Below, one piece after another: positions 3 through 9,534 of a stretch of 44,643 nt of DNA. A program made the translations under genes and the position numbers. The notes beneath the pieces were generated by a model that saw only the letters and a list, made by a program, of their open reading frames with translations, did not search any database and was not told the DNA's origin. Within the stretch, counting starts at the first letter, position 1, and every line of letters begins with the position of its first letter. This stretch comes from Gammaproteobacteria bacterium (GTDB lineage Bacteria > Pseudomonadota > Gammaproteobacteria > Eutrophobiales > Eutrophobiaceae), in assembly GCA_024278135.1 (NCBI GenBank), contig JAJRTU010000055.1, forward strand, positions 1 through 44,643, written 5' to 3'.

Positions 3-287
3 TATCCCAATCTGCTTGATGCCTGGTACGGCTATAAAAACAAGATCATAACAGCCAGGGAATTCAGGCAGATCGCCTTTGCCGTGAAAGACCGGCAACG
101 GCCGCCGCAGGACACCGCGCTGGGAGGCTATATCGGTATTCACGGGCTGGGGGAAAGCACGAAAAAGAGGCTGGAGATCCATGAAAACTTTAACTGGACT
201 GAGGGTTGTATTGCCTTGAAAAACAGCGAAATCAATGCCCTTCGCCAATATGTCTCCATCGGTACCCGCGTGACCATCAGGGAATGA
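3..287 (+). CDS. L,D-transpeptidase (YkuD domain), 3' part
   Basis: The C-terminal part of a YkuD-fold L,D-transpeptidase; the reading frame is open to the left edge, so the true start lies outside the window. The visible protein has the two family landmarks: a GIHG motif carrying the active-site His, and WTEGCIAL carrying the catalytic Cys, followed by the usual hydrophobic end (GTRVTI). Family members work in the periplasm, making 3-3 peptidoglycan cross-links or attaching proteins to the wall. A GTG at 84 gives a shorter ORF, but the residues before it fit the family, so it is not the real start. The next gene starts one base after this stop, suggesting co-transcription. Confidence 0.85.
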   Translation, partial: YPNLLDAWYGYKNKIITAREFRQIAFAVKDRQRPPQDTALGGYIGIHGLGESTKKRLEIHENFNWTEGCIALKNSEINALRQYVSIGTRVTIRE

Positions 288-851: not shown

Positions 852-1604
852 TTGGAAAAAGAACCGCATCACCTGTTCCTGGTCTGGTTGATATTCACCG
901 GCCTGGTTTTTTTCACCCTGTTTGCCAGTTGGCATGAAAACATCCTGGTGTTGTTGTACGCCGGGGACAAGAGCCGGATATCCTGGGTCATCAGCCTGCT
1001 TTACCTGATGATTACCTTCCACTGTGTACTTCGCATCAGCTATATTTCAACCCAGTTGAACGCCACTCAACGGATAAAGGAACTGCTGCAAAACGAAGGA
1101 GATCTTGATATGTATCTGCGTAACGGTCGTGTACACGTTAACGGTCTTCATGTCCTCCCCGATTCTGTGCTGAGTGACTATCTTCATGATTTGATATACA
1201 AGACCACACATGAAAAAAACAACGATAACAGCGAATCAAACAAGCAGAATGGCGATTTACTGGACGTATATGAATCAAGACTGAAGAAACCCCATGATAT
1301 CGGCTGGTTTGTCACCGATATTATGGTGAAACTGGGCTTGCTGGGAACCATTGTCGGTTTCGTGTTAATGCTGGGAACCGTTGTCAATATCACGGATGTT
1401 GACATTGGTACCGTCCAGAAAATCCTTAAACAAATGAGTTCTGGAATGGGCACCGCTCTTTACACCACCTTTGCCGGACTGGTTTGCAGTATTCTCGCCG
1501 GCATCCAGTACCATATGCTGGATCGCGGTGCCGACGATCTGATCGACACGGCAAAACACCTCAGCAGCGTCTATGTTCTGCCGAAACTGAAACCGGCAAA
1601 CTGA
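852..1604 (+). CDS. MotA/TolQ/ExbB-family channel protein
   Basis: A roughly 250-residue inner-membrane protein of the MotA/TolQ/ExbB family, which forms the pentameric stator around two ExbD/MotB-type helices and couples ion flow to work in the envelope. Two transmembrane helices lie near residues 8-27 and 43-62. A cytoplasmic stretch follows, then two long C-terminal helices (about 158-180 and 200-220) with the family pattern LGLLGTIVGF and GMGTALYTTFAG. I chose the TTG at 852, which has GGGGGA upstream, over the TTG at 825, which lacks a ribosome site. The central loop (about residues 115-140) is Asn/Lys-rich. The next gene starts five bases after the stop and encodes the expected ExbD-like partner. 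Confidence 0.85.
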   Translation: MEKEPHHLFLVWLIFTGLVFFTLFASWHENILVLLYAGDKSRISWVISLLYLMITFHCVLRISYISTQLNATQRIKELLQNEGDLDMYLRNGRVHVNGLHVLPDSVLSDYLHDLIYKTTHEKNNDNSESNKQNGDLLDVYESRLKKPHDIGWFVTDIMVKLGLLGTIVGFVLMLGTVVNITDVDIGTVQKILKQMSSGMGTALYTTFAGLVCSILAGIQYHMLDRGADDLIDTAKHLSSVYVLPKLKPAN

Positions 1605-1609
1605 GCGTT

Positions 1610-2203
1610 ATGTATACTCGTCGACGTTCCGAATCAGACCCATTCACGGATCTCCTGTTTAATGCCCTGTTGGGTTTTACCTTTCTGTTTCTGGTCGCCA
1701 TCATGTTCATGAATCCGGATGCCAAATCCGGTATTATTGATCCGAAGGCCGAGTATATACTGACCGTTACCTGGGAGGACAACAGTCCTGATGATATCGA
1801 CACCTGGGTGGAAGATCCCGATGGCAGGATTATCTGGTTCAGAAGTCCGGAAGCCGGTTTGTTACACCTTGACCGGGATGATAGAGGACTGCTCAACGAT
1901 ACCATTACGGTCAATGGTGAAGAACTTCAGAACCCGCTGAATCAGGAAGTAGTAACCATTCGCGGGGTGGTACGAGGCGAATATGTCGTTAATCTGCATT
2001 ATTATGCGTCGGTGACCAAAAAGGCTGTCGATGTCAACGTTCGGCTTGTCAAAGTCAATCCGGCATTGGAGGTTATCTATTACGGTACGATCAACCTGGG
2101 AGAAGCGGGTGATGAAAAGACAGTCCTGCGTTTTCATATCGGTGCTGACGGCAAAGTTTACGACATAAATTTCTTGCCGAAGAAGCTGGTGTCTATCGGT
2201 TAA
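1610..2203 (+). CDS. ExbD-like protein with DUF2135-like extracytoplasmic domain
   Basis: A 197-residue protein with one N-terminal membrane helix (about residues 15-34). The start of the helix reads Pro11-Phe-Thr-Asp14-Leu-Leu, matching the ExbD/TolR signature in which this Asp carries the proton. After the helix there is no ordinary ExbD or OmpA domain. Instead there is a beta-rich domain with a pattern like DUF2135/YfaP (WEDNSPDDIDTWVEDPDG, then HLDRDDRG). ATG 1610 is chosen because the upstream part of the open frame overlaps the channel gene and looks non-coding. The pairing with that gene supports a two-component stator. What the outer domain binds is unknown. Confidence 0.7.
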   Translation: MYTRRRSESDPFTDLLFNALLGFTFLFLVAIMFMNPDAKSGIIDPKAEYILTVTWEDNSPDDIDTWVEDPDGRIIWFRSPEAGLLHLDRDDRGLLNDTITVNGEELQNPLNQEVVTIRGVVRGEYVVNLHYYASVTKKAVDVNVRLVKVNPALEVIYYGTINLGEAGDEKTVLRFHIGADGKVYDINFLPKKLVSIG

Positions 2204-2274
2204 CAAAATTTGTCGCTATGAGCACCTGTCCTCTCGCGACATACACTACATCCTGTCATTAAAAGGGGGTTTTT

Positions 2275-2796
2275 GTGGTTACTTTGAGTATTTCCGGGTT
2301 GATTGCCGCCTACATTCTTATCGCGATACTGTTATTGAGTCTTAACCTGTACTCGAAATGGTCATGGCAGGTCAAGGCTGGAGCCATCATCATTACCACG
2401 CTGTTTTACGTTATCAGCTTTGTTTCCTTTTCCCCCTTGTTGGGTTGGCCGACGAAAGATCTGCCGCCCAGTAATTTCCGTCTGATAGCAGCTCATGTTC
2501 AACAACCTGACAAGATCACCGGTGATGAAGGGGCTATCTATCTTTGGCTGACGCATATTGACGATCTGAGCACAAATACACCACCGCGCGCCTACGAATT
2601 TCCCTATTCAAATGCATTGTACGAGAAAATTGTGCTGGCAAATACTAAACTGAAGAAGGGCGTGCCCTTGTTAGGTGAGATCGAGGAAGAGGATGAGAGG
2701 GGCAAAATACAAGTTGAAGACGGCAACAGACTTGGACAGGAATCCATTAACATTCAGTTTTACGATCTGCCCGACCTGCTCATACCTGACAAATAA
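2275..2796 (+). CDS. conserved-looking membrane protein, unknown function
   Basis: A 173-residue protein I do not recognise. Two hydrophobic helices (about residues 5-24 and 34-55) are followed by a soluble domain of about 115 residues with a PPRAYEFPY motif and an acidic stretch (EIEEEDERG). The GTG start has AGGGGG about six bases upstream. The stop abuts the start of the vWA-FHA gene with no gap, which strongly suggests translational coupling. It probably belongs to the same membrane complex; no biochemical role can be read from the sequence. Confidence 0.75.
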   Translation: MVTLSISGLIAAYILIAILLLSLNLYSKWSWQVKAGAIIITTLFYVISFVSFSPLLGWPTKDLPPSNFRLIAAHVQQPDKITGDEGAIYLWLTHIDDLSTNTPPRAYEFPYSNALYEKIVLANTKLKKGVPLLGEIEEEDERGKIQVEDGNRLGQESINIQFYDLPDLLIPDK

Positions 2797-4296
2797 ATGC
2801 GCCTGCAACAATTAAGCTGTCAAGTTTTACTGATCATTGCCGTCTCGTGTGCCATCAGCACGCCTCTTTTTGCCTGGCAACACCTGAGCAACGATATCGA
2901 TATACGTTGCTCTCAGGAAAATAAAACCTCACTCCGTTGTTACTACCGTTTGTTGTTTCCGGGTCCGGCAAGTAATATCCGGGCATATTCTGACGGACTG
3001 GAACTGCCTGTAGAAAAGACCCACAAAGTCGGCGACGATGTCACCGCAATAATCTTTCTGATTGATACCAGTGATCCGGGCAGGCAAAATGTTATTGAAA
3101 AAAATATTCGACAACTGGAAAAAATGCTTGATGCCAGTGGTCCTTCACAGCAACTGGGCCTGGCCAGTTTCGATAAAAAACTGCGTATACTGGCTCCCAT
3201 CGGATCCAGTAAGAAGCAGATTATTGCAGCAGCAAAAAATATCAAAGCAAAAGGAAGAACAACTGAATTATACCGCAGCCTGCTTTTAACCATTGAGAAA
3301 CTGTCCCGCGTCAACGCCGGACGAAAAGCCATTTACCTTTTTTCCGATGGTCAGGCGGAAGATAAAGCCTACTTTCACTCTGACGTCATCAAGGCAGCTA
3401 GAAAAAAGGGCATCGTTATAAACAGTATTGGTTTTCCCCGCTCTGTCACTCTTTCTGTTGCCCTGCAAACACTCCGTCGTTTAAGCGAAGAAACAGGAGG
3501 GACCTTTACCGAAGCGGACAGTCACTACGATCTGGAAGAAAAATTCTATCGTGACCCCTACAGTAACGTTGACCGGGGCGAAGGATTCACTGTTGATATG
3601 TCGGCCCTTGCTACCAACACCATGCTGTCCCCGGTCGAAGTCACACTGGAATTTACCACTGATATCGGCAGCATCAAAACAAGAGTGCCGGTGTCATTGC
3701 CTGTCAGCCCGGCTGAAAAAGCCCCTGCTCCACTTGCAGCACCCATTCAGGTGGCACCGCCACCAGCAGTTGTTAAGATGGCCGTACCGGTGTCCGAGTC
3801 GGAAAAAATTGACTTCTGGTTATGGTATGGTCTGCCCGTTGCGCTTGTCATCCTGTTCCTGATAGCACTGGTAACACTTATCCTTATATACAGAAAGCAG
3901 CCTGACAAGACGACGATCGCCAATAGCTTTCAACAGCAGAACAAACCCTTTGCCTATCTCGTTTCCCAGGAAGAACATTCCAGACGCTATCCCATTCTGA
4001 GCACGACCTGGCGTATTGGCCGCAGTCGTGACAATGAATTGTCACTGGACGACACTTCCATATCCCGACTCCACGCCGAGATACATCGCGATAACGACGG
4101 TAGTTTTTTTATCACTGATATGTCGTCACTGAACGGCGTTTACGTGAACGAAGAGCAGGTAGTGTCAAAACAAAAGTTACAGGAAGGTGATATCATAGAG
4201 ATTGGCGATATCTATCTTCGTTTCACACTGTATTCTGAGGATTATCAATTAAGCGATGACACCGCCATTCAGAAGACCAGAGTACCCGCAGATTAG
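2797..4296 (+). CDS. membrane protein with vWA and FHA domains
   Basis: A 499-residue protein in four parts: a signal peptide (1-26), a vWA domain (about 80-250), a Pro/Ala-rich linker, and a transmembrane helix (about 341-365) followed by an FHA domain (about 403-478). The order predicts vWA in the periplasm and FHA in the cytoplasm. The FHA core is intact: Gly408-Arg409, Ser-Arg-Leu-His near 423-426 and Asn446, the residues that bind phospho-threonine. In vWA the metal site is atypical: Asp90-Thr-Ser92-Asp-Pro94 where DxSxS is expected, although FSDG (182-185) is present. It directly follows the previous gene and ends the plus-strand cluster. No Ser/Thr kinase is visible in the window. Confidence 0.85.
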   Translation: MRLQQLSCQVLLIIAVSCAISTPLFAWQHLSNDIDIRCSQENKTSLRCYYRLLFPGPASNIRAYSDGLELPVEKTHKVGDDVTAIIFLIDTSDPGRQNVIEKNIRQLEKMLDASGPSQQLGLASFDKKLRILAPIGSSKKQIIAAAKNIKAKGRTTELYRSLLLTIEKLSRVNAGRKAIYLFSDGQAEDKAYFHSDVIKAARKKGIVINSIGFPRSVTLSVALQTLRRLSEETGGTFTEADSHYDLEEKFYRDPYSNVDRGEGFTVDMSALATNTMLSPVEVTLEFTTDIGSIKTRVPVSLPVSPAEKAPAPLAAPIQVAPPPAVVKMAVPVSESEKIDFWLWYGLPVALVILFLIALVTLILIYRKQPDKTTIANSFQQQNKPFAYLVSQEEHSRRYPILSTTWRIGRSRDNELSLDDTSISRLHAEIHRDNDGSFFITDMSSLNGVYVNEEQVVSKQKLQEGDIIEIGDIYLRFTLYSEDYQLSDDTAIQKTRVPAD

Positions 4297-4389: not shown

Positions 4390-6030
4390 TCAGCGACTGC
4401 CAGAGGCAACAACTAACTTATTTCTGCCATCGCCTTTTGCCCTGTAAAGCGCCTCATCAGCCATAATCAATAATTGTTCCACATTGTCTGCGTGATCAGG
4501 ATACATGGCGAGTCCCAGTGATACAGTCACCTGTCCCAGTTTTATATGATCAAGTTCGAGATCAAGCGAACTGATATTTTCACGTAATTTTTCGGCGAGG
4601 TGGATGGCTTCATCAAGTACGATATTCGTATAAACGATACAAAACTCTTCGCCACCATAACGGGCCGGGATATCCGATGCCCTTGTACTTTGTCTGATTT
4701 CTCTGGCTATACGCTTCAACACGATGTCGCCTGCTTCATGACCGAAAGTGTCATTAAAACGTTTGAAGTGATCCGCATCCAGCATGACGACGGCCATTCC
4801 AGAGTTATTGCGTTTCACCAGGTTAATCGATTGCTCCGTGGATTCAGTCAGATAACGTCGATTGTACAGCCCGGTCAGGGGATCACGTATCGCCTGTTGA
4901 AACAAATCGTCACGAAGGCTTATATTAGCCAGTGCCAGACTGATCTGCTCTGCGACCGACATGGCCAGCCTTCGCATATCGACAGTCAGCTCTGTATGCC
5001 TGAAGTTCAGATGCAAACTGCCGAGTGTATTCCCCTGGGCGGTCAGCGGGATACAGAGTGTCGGGGCGGACAGTGTATAGTCTGAATGCGGGCAGAGGAT
5101 CTGCACGTCATTTTCATTCGAATAATACGGATGTCCTTTACGCAGTGCCCAGCAATCACCAGGGTCAAATTTATCATTTTTCGGCCCCTTTTCTCCCCAG
5201 AAGACGATTAACTCACACATATTCCTGGAGGAATTTATCATGAATACTGCCCCTAATGTCCTGGGTAACAATGTCGGGACAAGATTCTGAATCACCCTGG
5301 CAGCCTCATCAATATTCTTGCAGGCATTGAGTAAACTGCTCAGGTTCTGCAGCAGGGAAATTTCCCGAGTGCGATCTTCAACACGCTGTTCCAGAACGCT
5401 TTGTTCATCAGCTATGGCTTGTTTAAGTATACGTAATGCCAATATCCACAACAGTAATAAAGAAAGCAGGCTGAGCAGTGTAATAACGGTCAGGCCGAAG
5501 CGCATTTCGACAATAAGAGCGGATTCGCTTGCCAACGGCATTGATGCCCGGGCAACGAAGATGTGTGGAGACTCTGAAGAGCCTGAGCTGTGCATGACCT
5601 CCTTGATATTGCTCATGGCAAAATACATCATTGATTCTTTCAGTGTATTACTGTAACGAATACTTTTACCATGACCTGTTTTCAATGCTTGCATGACTTC
5701 GGGTCTGCTAGCATGGCTTTCAACAGATCCCACTTCGGCCAGGGATAATTCGGAATCACCCAATACCACACCTTCATGATCAATATAGGTGATTCGGGCG
5801 TGACTGGCTTGGCCCAGACGATCAGCCAGGCTGTCGAAAACAGCGACGTTTTGCTTCGCCGTGTTATCAGGTACGAATATCAGGGCCGTTCGCGCTAAAC
5901 CGGAGAGATTGGTTTCGATACGTTTATGAAGGATTGACCGCATTTGATAGTCCAACACGAACATGGTGATTATTGCCAGAGCCCCCGCGACAGCAACGAT
6001 AAACAATGTGATTTTATGATATTTTTTCAT
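4390..6030 (-). CDS. membrane diguanylate cyclase, sCache-like/GAF/GGDEF
   Basis: A 546-residue enzyme expected to make cyclic di-GMP from two GTP. From the N-terminus: a helix (7-28), an extracytoplasmic domain (about 30-170) resembling the PhoR-type single-Cache fold (RITYIDHEGVVLGDSE, then RPEVMQAL), a second helix (about 176-197), a short coiled coil, a GAF domain (about 228-370) and a C-terminal GGDEF domain. The active site reads GGEEF, with an RxxD inhibitory site (RASD) five residues before it, so product feedback is likely. I start at ATG 6030, just before the first helix; the 73 codons upstream look non-coding. It converges on the vWA-FHA gene. Confidence 0.88.
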   Translation of the reverse strand: MKKYHKITLFIVAVAGALAIITMFVLDYQMRSILHKRIETNLSGLARTALIFVPDNTAKQNVAVFDSLADRLGQASHARITYIDHEGVVLGDSELSLAEVGSVESHASRPEVMQALKTGHGKSIRYSNTLKESMMYFAMSNIKEVMHSSGSSESPHIFVARASMPLASESALIVEMRFGLTVITLLSLLSLLLLWILALRILKQAIADEQSVLEQRVEDRTREISLLQNLSSLLNACKNIDEAARVIQNLVPTLLPRTLGAVFMINSSRNMCELIVFWGEKGPKNDKFDPGDCWALRKGHPYYSNENDVQILCPHSDYTLSAPTLCIPLTAQGNTLGSLHLNFRHTELTVDMRRLAMSVAEQISLALANISLRDDLFQQAIRDPLTGLYNRRYLTESTEQSINLVKRNNSGMAVVMLDADHFKRFNDTFGHEAGDIVLKRIAREIRQSTRASDIPARYGGEEFCIVYTNIVLDEAIHLAEKLRENISSLDLELDHIKLGQVTVSLGLAMYPDHADNVEQLLIMADEALYRAKGDGRNKLVVASGSR

Positions 6031-6366
6031 GGCGTTGGCAGCTACACTCGAGAAGCAGTCGTCATGGAGAGAACAAATCCCCAAACCACATATCGGTATG
6101 ATCGGGCAAAAGTTTAGCGCTATCCATGTAATACGCAAAGAATACAGACAAAACCGGTCCGGTCCTGTGGCAACGGTGTAATTGGCACTTTGTGGCCCCG
6201 GATGCGAAATCCAGGCGCTTCCATTCCAGGATGACAGTGCCTCCACCATGTCGAGATCCCTGTCTGACGACAGGCACCCTTCTTTCTCAAAGTCGTTTCA
6301 GTTCAAAAACTGTCGCTATTTTCGGGATTCGTGATTACTCTGTGCCGCTTCTTGTCAACAACCGTT
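6031..6366. other. intergenic region upstream of the diguanylate cyclase
   Basis: A 336-base stretch between the ends of two minus-strand genes. The part next to the cyclase is open in the cyclase frame but Cys/Trp-rich and unlike a protein. A small perfect hairpin (CCTGTC, loop TGAC, GACAGG) lies at 6259-6274 without a convincing T-run on the minus strand. The cyclase promoter should lie here, but I see no clear sigma-70 boxes. Confidence 0.4.
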
Positions 6367-7170
6367 TCAGTTGCCAACAAATTCAGCTTCCAGAAAATCC
6401 AGTTGCTGCTGACTGAAGCCCGCCTCAATTCTGGCTGCTTTGTTCAGCCCTCCCCTGAATTCATCAAGCTGATATTGTTTAATGAGCTGAATAAATGTAC
6501 TTTCAGCTTCAAGTCCGCGTTGTGAACAAATATATCGAAACCAGAAAATACCTGTCCTCACGTGACCGATTTCCTCTCTATATATGGTTTCAAGTGTTTC
6601 GACGATTTCTGTCTCACCGGTATCAGCAAACTTTTTTATCATCGCGGGAGTCACATCGAGTCCTCTGGCTTCAAGCACTCCTGGAATAATTGCCATCCTG
6701 TGCAGCACATCCTCAGCTGTATTCTCGGCCATCGTCCATAAACCGTCATGGGCATCAAAATCCCCATAGTCATATGACGCCCTGTTAAGATGGGTACGCA
6801 GTAATGAGAAATGCCCGGTTTCTTCCTGTGCTACCTGCAAATAGTCCCAATAGTAATCCTCCGGCATGTCCTGAAAGCGATAAATGGCATCCCAGGCCAG
6901 ATTGATGGCATTGAATTCGATATGCGCAATCGCATGCAGCAGTGACAGACGTGCTTGCTGAGTGCCGAAACCACGGCGGGGCAGAGCCTTCGGCGGAACC
7001 AGTCTGGGTTTGCACGGCCGACCCACGCAATGCGTTGATTCAACCGTCACTTTCTTTAAAGAAAATCCCTGGCGGCATCGCTTGACTGTCGCTGTAGAGA
7101 GTTGAATCTTTTTTTCCAGATTATTTTCCTTCAAGCAGTCCCTGGCGGCGCTGAACAGATCAACGGGCAT
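6367..7170 (-). CDS. DUF455 ferritin-like protein
   Basis: A 267-residue protein of the DUF455 family (COG2833), helical proteins related to ferritin-like di-iron enzymes such as MiaE. Carboxylate and His ligands are visible as EFNAINLAWDA, EETGHFSLL and EEIGHVRTG, the pattern of a di-iron four-helix bundle. The family reaction is not established. ATG 7170 is chosen because the protein then begins MPVDLFSAARDCL, as family members do, and GAGGG sits about ten bases upstream. The start overlaps the last 11 bases of tilS. Longer versions would read through tilS sequence and are rejected. Confidence 0.85.
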   Translation of the reverse strand: MPVDLFSAARDCLKENNLEKKIQLSTATVKRCRQGFSLKKVTVESTHCVGRPCKPRLVPPKALPRRGFGTQQARLSLLHAIAHIEFNAINLAWDAIYRFQDMPEDYYWDYLQVAQEETGHFSLLRTHLNRASYDYGDFDAHDGLWTMAENTAEDVLHRMAIIPGVLEARGLDVTPAMIKKFADTGETEIVETLETIYREEIGHVRTGIFWFRYICSQRGLEAESTFIQLIKQYQLDEFRGGLNKAARIEAGFSQQQLDFLEAEFVGN

Positions 7171-8530
7171 CCGCGCTGCCCTCATGGAGCATAAGCTTTT
7201 TCTGAGCGCTCCAGTGGATCTGCCAGGAAATCTCATTCCCGTCGCTACAAGCTTCGGCATCAATCCATAATCCCGCCACCGCAATCAACTTGTCATCAAG
7301 ATAAAGCAAGGGGATACGATCACGCCACCATGGAGGAACACCTCTCTCCTGAAACAATTTCTTTAACTCCTGCCTGTGATTCTTGTGCCTCAAGCGGATC
7401 TTTTCTCCACCCTGACGATAACGCAACTGCAGTTTTCGTTCCGGGCAGACGCCGACTTTTATTCCGACACCTTTTGCCAACCGTGCGCTTATCGCACCTT
7501 CACTAAGTTGGCATATCGTCTCCAGATGCCAGTTCACGACATTATCTCTGTCGTGTTCCGCCAGCGGTGCAATGGCATAGAGATAATTTTTGTAACGCCT
7601 GAGTTCAACGCCTGGCCAGCTTACCAGGGGAGAAGCATCCACTCTGGCGGGTAACAAAGCATTCAAAATTTCCTGCATTTTCCTGGTATCCGGCACCGGT
7701 TGATCCCGTTGCCGCAGCCAGCACCTGATAATGTTAGCCTGCCGTGCGGATGAAAGAATTGATATTTTTTCCAGGTTCAGTCGCTGCCTGTCGTTATCAA
7801 TACAAGCGGACAGGTCGGATTCAGCCAGTTCATCCAGCAACAACATGGCCTCGGCCTGATGAGCCGCGACACGGGACAAGGTAGTGGCAATGTTTGGCCA
7901 GCGTTGTGCCAGCGTTGGCAATATCTCCTGCCTGAAAAAATTACGATCATAGGCGAGATCACTGTTGCTGTCGTCCTCAATCCACTTCAGCCTGTGCTGC
8001 TTTGCGTAGTCCAGCAGTTGCCGTCGATTGATATCCAGTAAAGGCCTCAGGTGCCAAAGCCTGCCACGGCGCTTTACTGCCGGCATGGCCGCCAGGCCCT
8101 TCACGCCAGCACCACGAGTCATTTGCAACAACAGTGTCTCGGCCTGGTCATCCCGATGATGGGCTGTCAGCAGTACGGCATCATCTGTTATCTGTGCTGC
8201 CAGCAATTGATATCGCCTTTGCCTCGCCCAGGCCTCCCGACTCTCACCCTGCGGGCAGGGCTGTTCAATTTTCAATGCAGTAAAGTCAATCTTCAGGTTT
8301 TTACAAGTATTTTCACAATGTACAACCCAGTCATCTGCGGCAACATGTAGACCATGATTAACGTGAAGCGCGTGAATTTCATTAGAGAGTTCTGATTTAA
8401 TCGAGAATAATGTATGTAACAAAACGTGGGAATCCAGGCCACCGCTGTAGGCAACATAATAGGGCCCTGATACCGGCAAGGCCTCCAGAGTTGTTAACAC
8501 AGTGGCAGCAGAGAATGATGTTGGCTTCAA
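7160..8530 (-). CDS. tilS: tRNA(Ile)-lysidine synthase
   Basis: A 456-residue enzyme that adds lysine to C34 of the tRNA-Ile that reads AUA, changing its charging and decoding. The PP-loop ATP-binding motif SGGLDS is at residues 29-34, and the HHRDDQAETLLL segment typical of TilS follows. The C-terminal domain (PRYRQGGEKIRL-type, here LRYRQGGEKIRL) is present. The start is TTG at 8530 with no clear ribosome site, so the exact N-terminus is uncertain. It lies downstream of accA, as in many gammaproteobacteria, and its stop overlaps the DUF455 gene. Confidence 0.95.
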   Translation of the reverse strand: MKPTSFSAATVLTTLEALPVSGPYYVAYSGGLDSHVLLHTLFSIKSELSNEIHALHVNHGLHVAADDWVVHCENTCKNLKIDFTALKIEQPCPQGESREAWARQRRYQLLAAQITDDAVLLTAHHRDDQAETLLLQMTRGAGVKGLAAMPAVKRRGRLWHLRPLLDINRRQLLDYAKQHRLKWIEDDSNSDLAYDRNFFRQEILPTLAQRWPNIATTLSRVAAHQAEAMLLLDELAESDLSACIDNDRQRLNLEKISILSSARQANIIRCWLRQRDQPVPDTRKMQEILNALLPARVDASPLVSWPGVELRRYKNYLYAIAPLAEHDRDNVVNWHLETICQLSEGAISARLAKGVGIKVGVCPERKLQLRYRQGGEKIRLRHKNHRQELKKLFQERGVPPWWRDRIPLLYLDDKLIAVAGLWIDAEACSDGNEISWQIHWSAQKKLMLHEGSADAR

Positions 8531-8586
8531 ACGTGAGATATCTAAATGGAAAAACTTATCCGGTTTTGATCCCGTAAGCCCGGCTG

Positions 8587-9534
8587 TTACTGGAAATTTC
8601 CGAAAGATCGCAGCTTCGCATATCGTTGCTTCAGTAATTCGTCAATGCTAAGTTGCTGTAAGATGTTCAGGCTGCTTTTCAGTGCTGATTTGATACTGGC
8701 CGAAACCGCATCATAGTCCCGGTGCGCTCCACCGAGGGGTTCCTTGATAATCTCATCCACAACACCAGCCTGTTTTAATCGTTCCGCAGTAATCCCCATG
8801 GCCTCCGCGGCGACAGCTGCCTTGTCGGCACTTTTCCAGAGTATGGAGGCACAACCTTCCGGTGATATGACCGAATAGGTGCTGTACTCCAGGATCATCA
8901 GTTTATCTGTCACACCAATCGCCAGAGCGCCACCGGAGCCTCCCTCTCCTATGACCACTGAAATGATCGGCGTACGTAATTCGGACATGACCAGCAGATT
9001 CCGGGCGATAGCCTCGCTCTGTCCTCGCTCTTCCGCTCCAATACCGGGATAGGCGCCGGGAGTATCCATAAACGTGATAACGGGCAGAGAAAAACGTTCA
9101 GCCATTTTCATGATACGCAAAGCCTTGCGGTAGCCCTCTGGTTTCGGCATACCGTAATTTCTCTCTATTCTTTCTTTTATATCGCGACCCTTCTGATGTC
9201 CAATGATGGCGACCGGCTGCCCGTCCAACCTGCCGAGGCCGGAAACAATCGCAGGATCATCGCCAAAATAGCGTTCACCATGTAACTCATGAAAGTCTGA
9301 AAAAATACGTTCTATATGATCGAGCGTATAAGGTCGTTGCGGGTGCCTGGCCACCTGGGAGACCTGCCAGGCATCCAAAGATGAGAAAATGGACGCCGTC
9401 AGCTCGTTACTGCGTTTCTCCAGTTTGGAAACCTCTTCGCTGATATTGATATCACTGTCATTACCAACGTAGCGCAACTCTTCAATTTTTGCTTCCAACT
9501 CTGCAATGGGTTGTTCAAAATCAAGAAAATTCAT
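8587..9534 (-). CDS. accA: acetyl-CoA carboxylase carboxyltransferase subunit alpha
   Basis: A 315-residue subunit close to the usual 319. With AccD it transfers the carboxyl group from biotin to acetyl-CoA, giving malonyl-CoA for fatty acid synthesis. The N-terminus [20 protein letters not shown] is the standard one. The crotonase-fold core shows the oxyanion-hole segments, for example [18 protein letters not shown] and the glycine-rich [12 protein letters not shown]. It follows dnaE after a 126-base gap with no obvious signals, in the usual gammaproteobacterial order. Confidence 0.97.

Follow-up and report, generated by a model that had tools for sequence, protein, structure and literature searches.

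Rotary motors driven by the proton motive force are known from flagella, from the Ton and Tol systems of transport and envelope stability, from gliding and secretion, and from Zorya defence. The window analysed here, a whole contig of 44,643 nucleotides (JAJRTU010000055.1) from a 3.74 Mb draft genome of the gammaproteobacterial family Eutrophobiaceae (GCA_024278135.1, 88% complete), carries in its first 4.3 kb six genes that all read in the same direction according to open reading frame (ORF) calls and domain searches. They encode a fragment of an L,D-transpeptidase (LDT), a DUF302 lipoprotein, an ExbB/MotA-like channel subunit, an ExbD-like rotor subunit, a two-helix protein here named TM2, and a protein that combines a vWA domain with an FHA domain. 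The channel, rotor and TM2 genes, referred to below as the triad, are interpreted as a motor of the 5:2 (ExbBD/TolQR/MotAB) superfamily that would form a separate branch with three obligate subunits and would work at the wall or outer membrane with lineage-specific load modules; judged from sequence, this interpretation has a probability of roughly 60%.

By profile, the channel subunit is nearest to the MotAB/PomAB stators, with which the locus also shares the two helices before the channel pair, the ALxTT motif and the rotor aspartate. Unlike these stators, the triad has a rotor without an OmpA-like domain, has no flagellar genes beside it, and always includes a third subunit. The ExbBD-TonB and TolQRA-Pal systems resemble the locus in the PF01618 channel, the PFxD motif of the rotor, the envelope-facing rotor domain and the lipoprotein partners, but the rotor domain of the triad is DUF2135-like instead of PF02472, TM2 has no counterpart in these systems, and a TonB/TolA transducer gene is absent among the recurrent neighbours of the triad. 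The Agl-Glt gliding machinery of Myxococcus (AglRQS, GltG) uses TolQR-like motor genes together with an FHA protein, and GltG is the top NCBIfam match for the FHA domain of the window; however, only this domain matches GltG (72 of 650 positions), and no other Glt component was seen in the loci. vWA proteins encoded beside TolQR-like motors have been proposed as force transducers (PMC12204202, Mol Biol Evol 2025), while a 2025 survey of MotAB relatives (PMC12505986) makes no mention of vWA or FHA and places ExbB/TolQ-like systems of unknown kind under 'generic ion transporters'. No report combining a transpeptidase, FHA, vWA and TolQ was found in the literature searched.

The triad and its subunits

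A sequence-only reading of the window had placed four ORFs at 852-4296 and regarded them as one four-gene machine. ORF calls and domain matches confirmed that all four are real and lie at these positions. The motor genes and their key residues are:

852..1604, + strand: ExbB/MotA-like channel subunit, motor gene 1 (PF01618, E 3e-10, 40.6 bits against a cut-off of 22.9)
1464..1469, + strand: codons of channel residues T205 and T206, invariant in alignment A4 and aligned with the conserved ALxTT of MotA/PomA
1610..2203, + strand: ExbD-like rotor subunit, motor gene 2: a single membrane helix plus a DUF2135-like beta-sandwich in the periplasm
1649..1651, + strand: codon of rotor residue D14, the membrane Asp of the PFTD motif
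2275..2796, + strand: TM2, third motor subunit (GTG start): a pair of membrane helices, an alpha/beta domain in the periplasm and a C-terminal tail that is conserved
2758..2793, + strand: TM2 tail motif FYDLPDLLIPDK, assessed by motif counts against control ORFs

The genome surveys for the motor used the ExbD-like protein as bait. It was detected in 44 of 96 related genomes and is carried by most members of the window's family; 41 of 369 genomes drawn from the class and 16 of 398 from the phylum were positive, the latter belonging mostly to one alphaproteobacterial genus. In the GTDB contig collection 277 stretches encode a rotor relative, and the best 80 were fetched as the genome loci counted below, a set of nearest relatives that is biased toward similar loci. 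The three genes lie side by side in 78 of these 80, and the two loci without an intact triad (L108 and L117) are both cut by contig ends; the arrangement is kept also in more distant members (L179 and L180). The locus is not a chance assemblage, for identity among the ExbD-like homologues stays high (50-87% in alignment A1) and their gene order is preserved in many bacterial genera; identity over the ExbD-like protein is 87% in the metagenome-assembled genome 'Gammaproteobacteria bacterium SI037_bin171'. The obligate unit is the ExbB-ExbD-TM2 triad and not the four genes: of the proposed four-gene machine the triad stood, and the vWA-FHA gene, missing beside about half of the 80 loci, did not.

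The genes tilS, accA and dnaE are recurrent neighbours of the bacterial loci, and the recurrence of tilS and accA near the locus in many relatives indicates a stable chromosomal site. In the window, genes for a GGDEF protein, a ferritin-like protein, tilS and accA follow downstream on the other strand (4390-9534). Within one alphaproteobacterial genus, many members with large genomes (6-9 Mb) carry the triad without the other partners (L217, L218, L219 and L224).

This distribution bears on whether the triad could be a Zorya-like anti-phage or superinfection-exclusion device, used by bacteria against phages and by phages against competitors. Zorya is likewise a 5:2 motor, ZorA is the best match of the channel in a defence library (E 1e-7), and the triad is carried by phages themselves, a trait in which it also differs from Zorya. 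However, only ZorA-type matches were obtained, and these below family level; neither ZorC nor ZorD nor the OmpA-like domain of ZorB is present, for which reason membership of Zorya was rejected, and PADLOC gave no match for the rotor, TM2 or the vWA-FHA protein. In addition, the site beside tilS, accA and dnaE is not a defence island, presence in most members of a family is unusual for defence, and a plasmid search returned no match. A defence role of this kind is therefore considered highly improbable.

The channel gene starts with TTG preceded by GGGGG, and of the seven MotA/ExbB homologues in the genome its product lies farthest from the Pfam model. Two hydrophobic helices precede the conserved channel pair, a topology that is MotA-like and not ExbB-like, and a profile of the family compared with solved structures was nearest to MotA/PomA (E 1e-4), followed by TolQ (0.03) and ExbB (0.4). 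Residues G162, G165, T166, G169, A202, L203, T205 and T206 are invariant among the 65 bacterial and viral homologues of alignment A4, defining the conserved motifs GxxGTxxGF and ALxTT, and in the alignment the T205/T206 pair occupies the position of the ion-path Thr of ExbB, TolQ and MotA. The predicted ion-path residues of the motor, the rotor Asp and the channel Thr, are thus both kept, in agreement with the stator-type ion channel pair that had been recognised from the sequence.

The single helix of the rotor starts with DPFTD, in which PFTD corresponds to PFID of Escherichia coli ExbD, and D14 is the equivalent of ExbD D25 and MotB D32. Asp occupies this position in 85 of 93 bacterial rows and, among the viral rows, in all 53 with a residue at that site. 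D10 was dropped as a candidate for the ion-path acid, being specific to bacteria, whereas D14 is retained in phages. The periplasmic part is modelled by AF2 as an 11-strand beta domain (mean pLDDT 86), in which the DxD and (R/K)DDxG motifs and an E, an R and a G are invariant in bacteria and phages. A weak, sub-threshold match to DUF2135 (PF09906) was obtained for 27 of 71 rotor homologues (best E 9e-4), and this is the sole family approached by many members, which relates the rotor to DUF2135/YfaP-like periplasmic domains, although below the threshold. Among the same 71 members the ExbD/TolR periplasmic domain PF02472 gave no match at E<=1, and an OmpA-like peptidoglycan-binding domain was not found on the rotor. 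The rotor by itself falls into no Pfam family, finds nothing convincing in NCBIfam, and its profile matched no PDB sequence. The outer domain of the ExbD-like partner, which had been called novel, is a DUF2135-like beta-sandwich; the literature searched contained no paper in which DUF2135 forms the outer part of the rotor in an ion motor.

In the structure prediction (pLDDT 85.6) a small alpha/beta domain comes after the two helices of TM2, which matches no Pfam family; the window protein has no convincing match in NCBIfam either. The loop between its helices is positively charged, so that by the positive-inside rule the domain is expected to be periplasmic. Of 107 bacterial TM2 proteins, 90 have the tail consensus FYDLPDPLFPEK, compared with 14 of 2,333 control ORFs; among viral TM2 proteins it can be recognised in 12 of 55. 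The very last residue is Lys in 83 of 106 bacterial TM2 proteins, the tail is predicted to be periplasmic and an LDT gene adjoins the triad in 50 of the 80 loci, a combination that would suit TM2 as an LDT substrate, its C-terminal Lys being joined to peptidoglycan as in Braun's lipoprotein to anchor the motor to the wall. However, the terminal Lys is equally common where no LDT is adjacent, the loci of the lipoprotein type described below ending in PEK, and only 8 of 54 phage proteins end in Lys, some having additional residues behind the motif. Some bacterial proteins end in KG, KN or R, and a docking peptide is a simpler account of the tail motif. Anchoring of TM2 by the LDT, weakened by the lipoprotein-type loci and the residues following the motif in phages, is considered very unlikely.

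Partner modules and the vWA-FHA protein

The remaining genes at the start of the window belong to partner modules outside the obligate motor:

3..287, + strand: YkuD L,D-transpeptidase fragment, C-terminal 94 aa (PF03734, E 1e-10), its 5' part cut by the contig start
289..798, + strand: DUF302 lipoprotein with lipobox LAAC-G (PF03625, E 1e-7)
2797..4296, + strand: vWA-FHA protein with a signal peptide, periplasmic vWA, one membrane helix and cytoplasmic FHA
3049..3522, + strand: vWA domain with a MIDAS-like DxSxP...T...D (PF00092, E 3e-13, residues 85-242)
4009..4206, + strand: FHA domain (PF00498, E 9e-21, residues 405-470)

The LDT and DUF302 genes noted directly upstream of the motor are indeed there, and their linkage recurs among the loci, the DUF302 gene adjoining the LDT gene in 40 of 80. 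A full-length LDT homologue at locus L038 has 207 aa (PF03734, E 1e-20), and the catalytic His and Cys are invariant in all 57 homologues. The full set of LDT, DUF302, triad and vWA-FHA is found in 33 of the 80 loci, LDT and triad without vWA-FHA in 10, LDT, DUF302 and triad in six, and triad and vWA-FHA in four. A further 18 loci combine the triad with a DUF3108-like lipoprotein and represent a second cellular version of the system, while seven consist of the bare triad with none of these partners. The DUF3108-like loci (L102, L107, L109, L115, L136 and others) come from Thiodiazotropha, Thiothrix, Caldimonas and other genera. Two named strains are among the matches: Methylohalomonas lacus HMT 1 combines an LDT with the triad, and Caldimonas tepidiphila YIM 730274 combines the triad with a lipoprotein.

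Among the 96 relatives, the rotor is present in 44, the vWA-FHA protein in 39 and both in 29 (Fisher p = 4e-6), and in 26 of the 29 genomes having both, the vWA-FHA gene adjoins the motor. An LDT gene adjoins the vWA-FHA gene without a motor in genera g11, g16 and g18 of the window's own family (L168-L172; also L177), and these two genes are a wall/signalling module of their own. In L174 and L175 the LDT, DUF302, a second TM2 and vWA-FHA genes are clustered, and the motor triad is located elsewhere in the genome. The occurrence of LDT/vWA-FHA pairs without motors and of motors without vWA-FHA indicates that two modules meet in the four-gene set, with the LDT as the neighbour common to both.

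Topology prediction supports the periplasmic location of the vWA domain and the cytoplasmic location of the FHA domain, as had been proposed. The MIDAS residues D90, S92, T156 and D184 are conserved in 44-46 of 47 sequences, and the pThr-site residues R409, S423, H426 and N446 of the FHA domain in 44 of 44, so that the predicted phospho-threonine-binding set is intact.

The vWA-FHA protein could be the force transducer of the motor, adding a further family to the vWA transducers of PMC12204202, in which case the four genes would form one machine. Publication of vWA genes beside TolQR-like motors, and the position of the vWA-FHA gene directly downstream of the motor in 26 of 29 genomes, favour this view; in both cases a membrane-tethered vWA protein without a known function is encoded beside a TolQR-like motor. 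However, the published families have a helix before the vWA domain with either an SHLS His or a trans-pore Asp, whereas the topology is reversed in the window protein, where a signal peptide and vWA precede the membrane helix and FHA follows it. His is found in this helix in none of 43 proteins, and the SHLS motor-binding motif is therefore absent; an acid is found in three of 43, so that it is not a trans-pore helix. Moreover, many motors lack vWA-FHA, seven loci lack any partner, and the LDT-vWA-FHA pairs occur in motor-free genomes. A transducer role is thus rather unlikely, and the reading of an obligate triad with exchangeable load modules is preferred.

The triad in phages

A scan of IMG/VR detected 137 rotor relatives on viral contigs, of which 80, on contigs of up to 527 kb, were fetched; with three loci of named phages they make up 83 viral loci. 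The channel gene adjoins the rotor gene in all 83, although in phage 16-3 it is matched weakly, at 17 bits, and TM2 is also present in 76. Complete triads occur in L228, L229, L243, L267 and other viral loci and in RHph_I1_9 (L308, 6534-8023; genes EVC04_146-148). PF01618 was above the cut-off in six of eight phage channel homologues and just below it in two. With the window rotor and a prophage rotor as queries, records of Rhizobium and Sinorhizobium phages were matched, including those of the temperate 16-3 and AP-16-3 and of RHph_I1_9, RL2RES and AF3, which are T4-like Pootjesviridae. In the T4-like phages the triad lies between gyrase-type topoisomerase genes and the genes of the late sigma factor, recombination exonuclease and sliding clamp, and among the genes neighbouring viral triads are those of a tail tube protein, UvsW and DnaB-like helicases. 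The triad genes of named phages are annotated 'hypothetical protein', and none of the three proteins has a good family in PHROGs. One phage homologue is labelled 'Bll5685 protein', a tag that presumably points to Bradyrhizobium. The neighbours of L221, a locus in an alphaproteobacterial genome, include lysozyme- and holin-like genes, which gives it the look of a prophage copy.

The 88 mainstream cellular sequences group together in the rotor tree (one clade, 100/99), beside and partly inside deeper viral branches, and a second deep group mixes cellular loci (L179, L180 and L183) with 16-3-like phages. The direction of transfer between phages and bacteria is not readable from this tree, given the unsure root, the long branches and the second deep cellular group.

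Other genes were seen near viral triads. A trypsin-like peptidase gene is found within about 3 kb of the triad in phages 16-3, X2_25, N3_13 and TM3_3_14B (L305-L307 and L312), directly upstream in 16-3, X2_25 and TM3_3_14B and downstream in N3_13. In Rhizobium phage RHph_I1_18 (L311, 8829-10259) a vWA-annotated protein (DUF2828/DUF7788) is encoded about 2 kb downstream of the triad; its domain content is unrelated to the vWA-FHA protein of the window. In six viral loci a gene for an SbmA/BacA-like peptide transporter lies beside the triad (PF05992, E 2e-72, L230 6531-7547).

This last neighbour, along with membership of the same superfamily as ExbBD, is consistent with an energiser of transport, that is, a Ton-like motor that drives import or export by way of an outer-membrane channel encoded elsewhere. 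However, no TonB-like gene was present in any architecture examined, no receptor is conserved beside the triad, and the recurrent partners are a wall enzyme and lipoproteins, which makes such a role distinctly unlikely. There is an even chance that tailed phages, among them T4-like Rhizobium phages and probably also jumbo phages, make a proton-driven 5:2 motor of their own, in which a third subunit is obligate, and use it during infection to work mechanically on the envelope of the host, and that bacteria share this core and have coupled it to modules for wall building by LDT and phospho-signalling by FHA. The literature search, with most subscription journals and preprints outside its coverage, found no report of a phage-encoded ExbB/ExbD-type (5:2) motor.

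Proposed mechanism and its implications

Gene content and order, residue conservation, modularity and presence in phages are observed, and on this basis the following mechanism may be proposed. Ions would flow past the membrane Asp of the rotor and the ring of channel Thr residues, and an ExbD-like dimer would be turned inside an ExbB-like pentamer, proton-driven rotation and the 5:2 stoichiometry being ascribed to the motor by homology with the superfamily. The rotor would expose its DUF2135-like beta-sandwich in the periplasm in place of an ExbD/TolR or OmpA-like domain, while TM2, with its periplasmic domain and flexible tail ending FYxLPxxxxPxK, would most likely connect the motor to the load. 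In the window's lineage the load module would comprise the LDT, the DUF302 lipoprotein and the vWA-FHA protein, so that the motor, acting through TM2 and the beta-sandwich of the rotor, would most likely perform mechanical work on the wall or outer membrane at the site of LDT action, and the FHA domain would serve as a phospho-threonine input. The load, the role of TM2, FHA gating and the function in phages are deduced from context.

Several observations weigh against this reading. Foldseek searches with models of the periplasmic domains of the rotor and of TM2 returned no significant solved structure for either. Seven bacterial rotors (L097, L111, L055, L125, L154, L157 and L160) have Ala instead of D14 and Lys instead of N18, one helical turn further on, and may not conduct ions in the usual way. 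The link of the motor to vWA-FHA is optional; of the four-gene co-occurrence anticipated by the sequence-only reading, adjacency held in 26 of the 29 genomes with both proteins, but within the window's family the presence of rotor and vWA-FHA is unassociated (p = 0.74). The vWA MIDAS is non-canonical, since DxSxS is expected and the fifth position is Pro in 41 of 47 sequences. Finally, the source genome encodes 12 Ser/Thr kinases, none of them on the window's contig, and the conserved kinase or PP2C neighbour that had been suggested was rejected; gating by phosphorylation through the FHA domain is possible.

The Ala-variant loci still keep the channel Thr residues. Tandem TM2 genes occur exclusively beside an Ala-variant rotor (four of four tandem loci), and in two further Ala-variant genomes a second TM2 is found inside a split cluster. 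This restriction supports the action of TM2 and the rotor in one complex.

The engine class and the general pairing of vWA proteins with motors are already known, while the third subunit, the rotor domain, the swapping of modules and the carriage by phages appear to be new. If the phage motor works, phages would carry a ready-made ion motor acting on the envelope from inside, of which no record was found. In bacteria, the proposed branch, which about one in nine of the sampled gammaproteobacterial genomes carries, would add to this class of motors an extra obligate subunit, a new outer domain of the rotor and exchangeable load modules.

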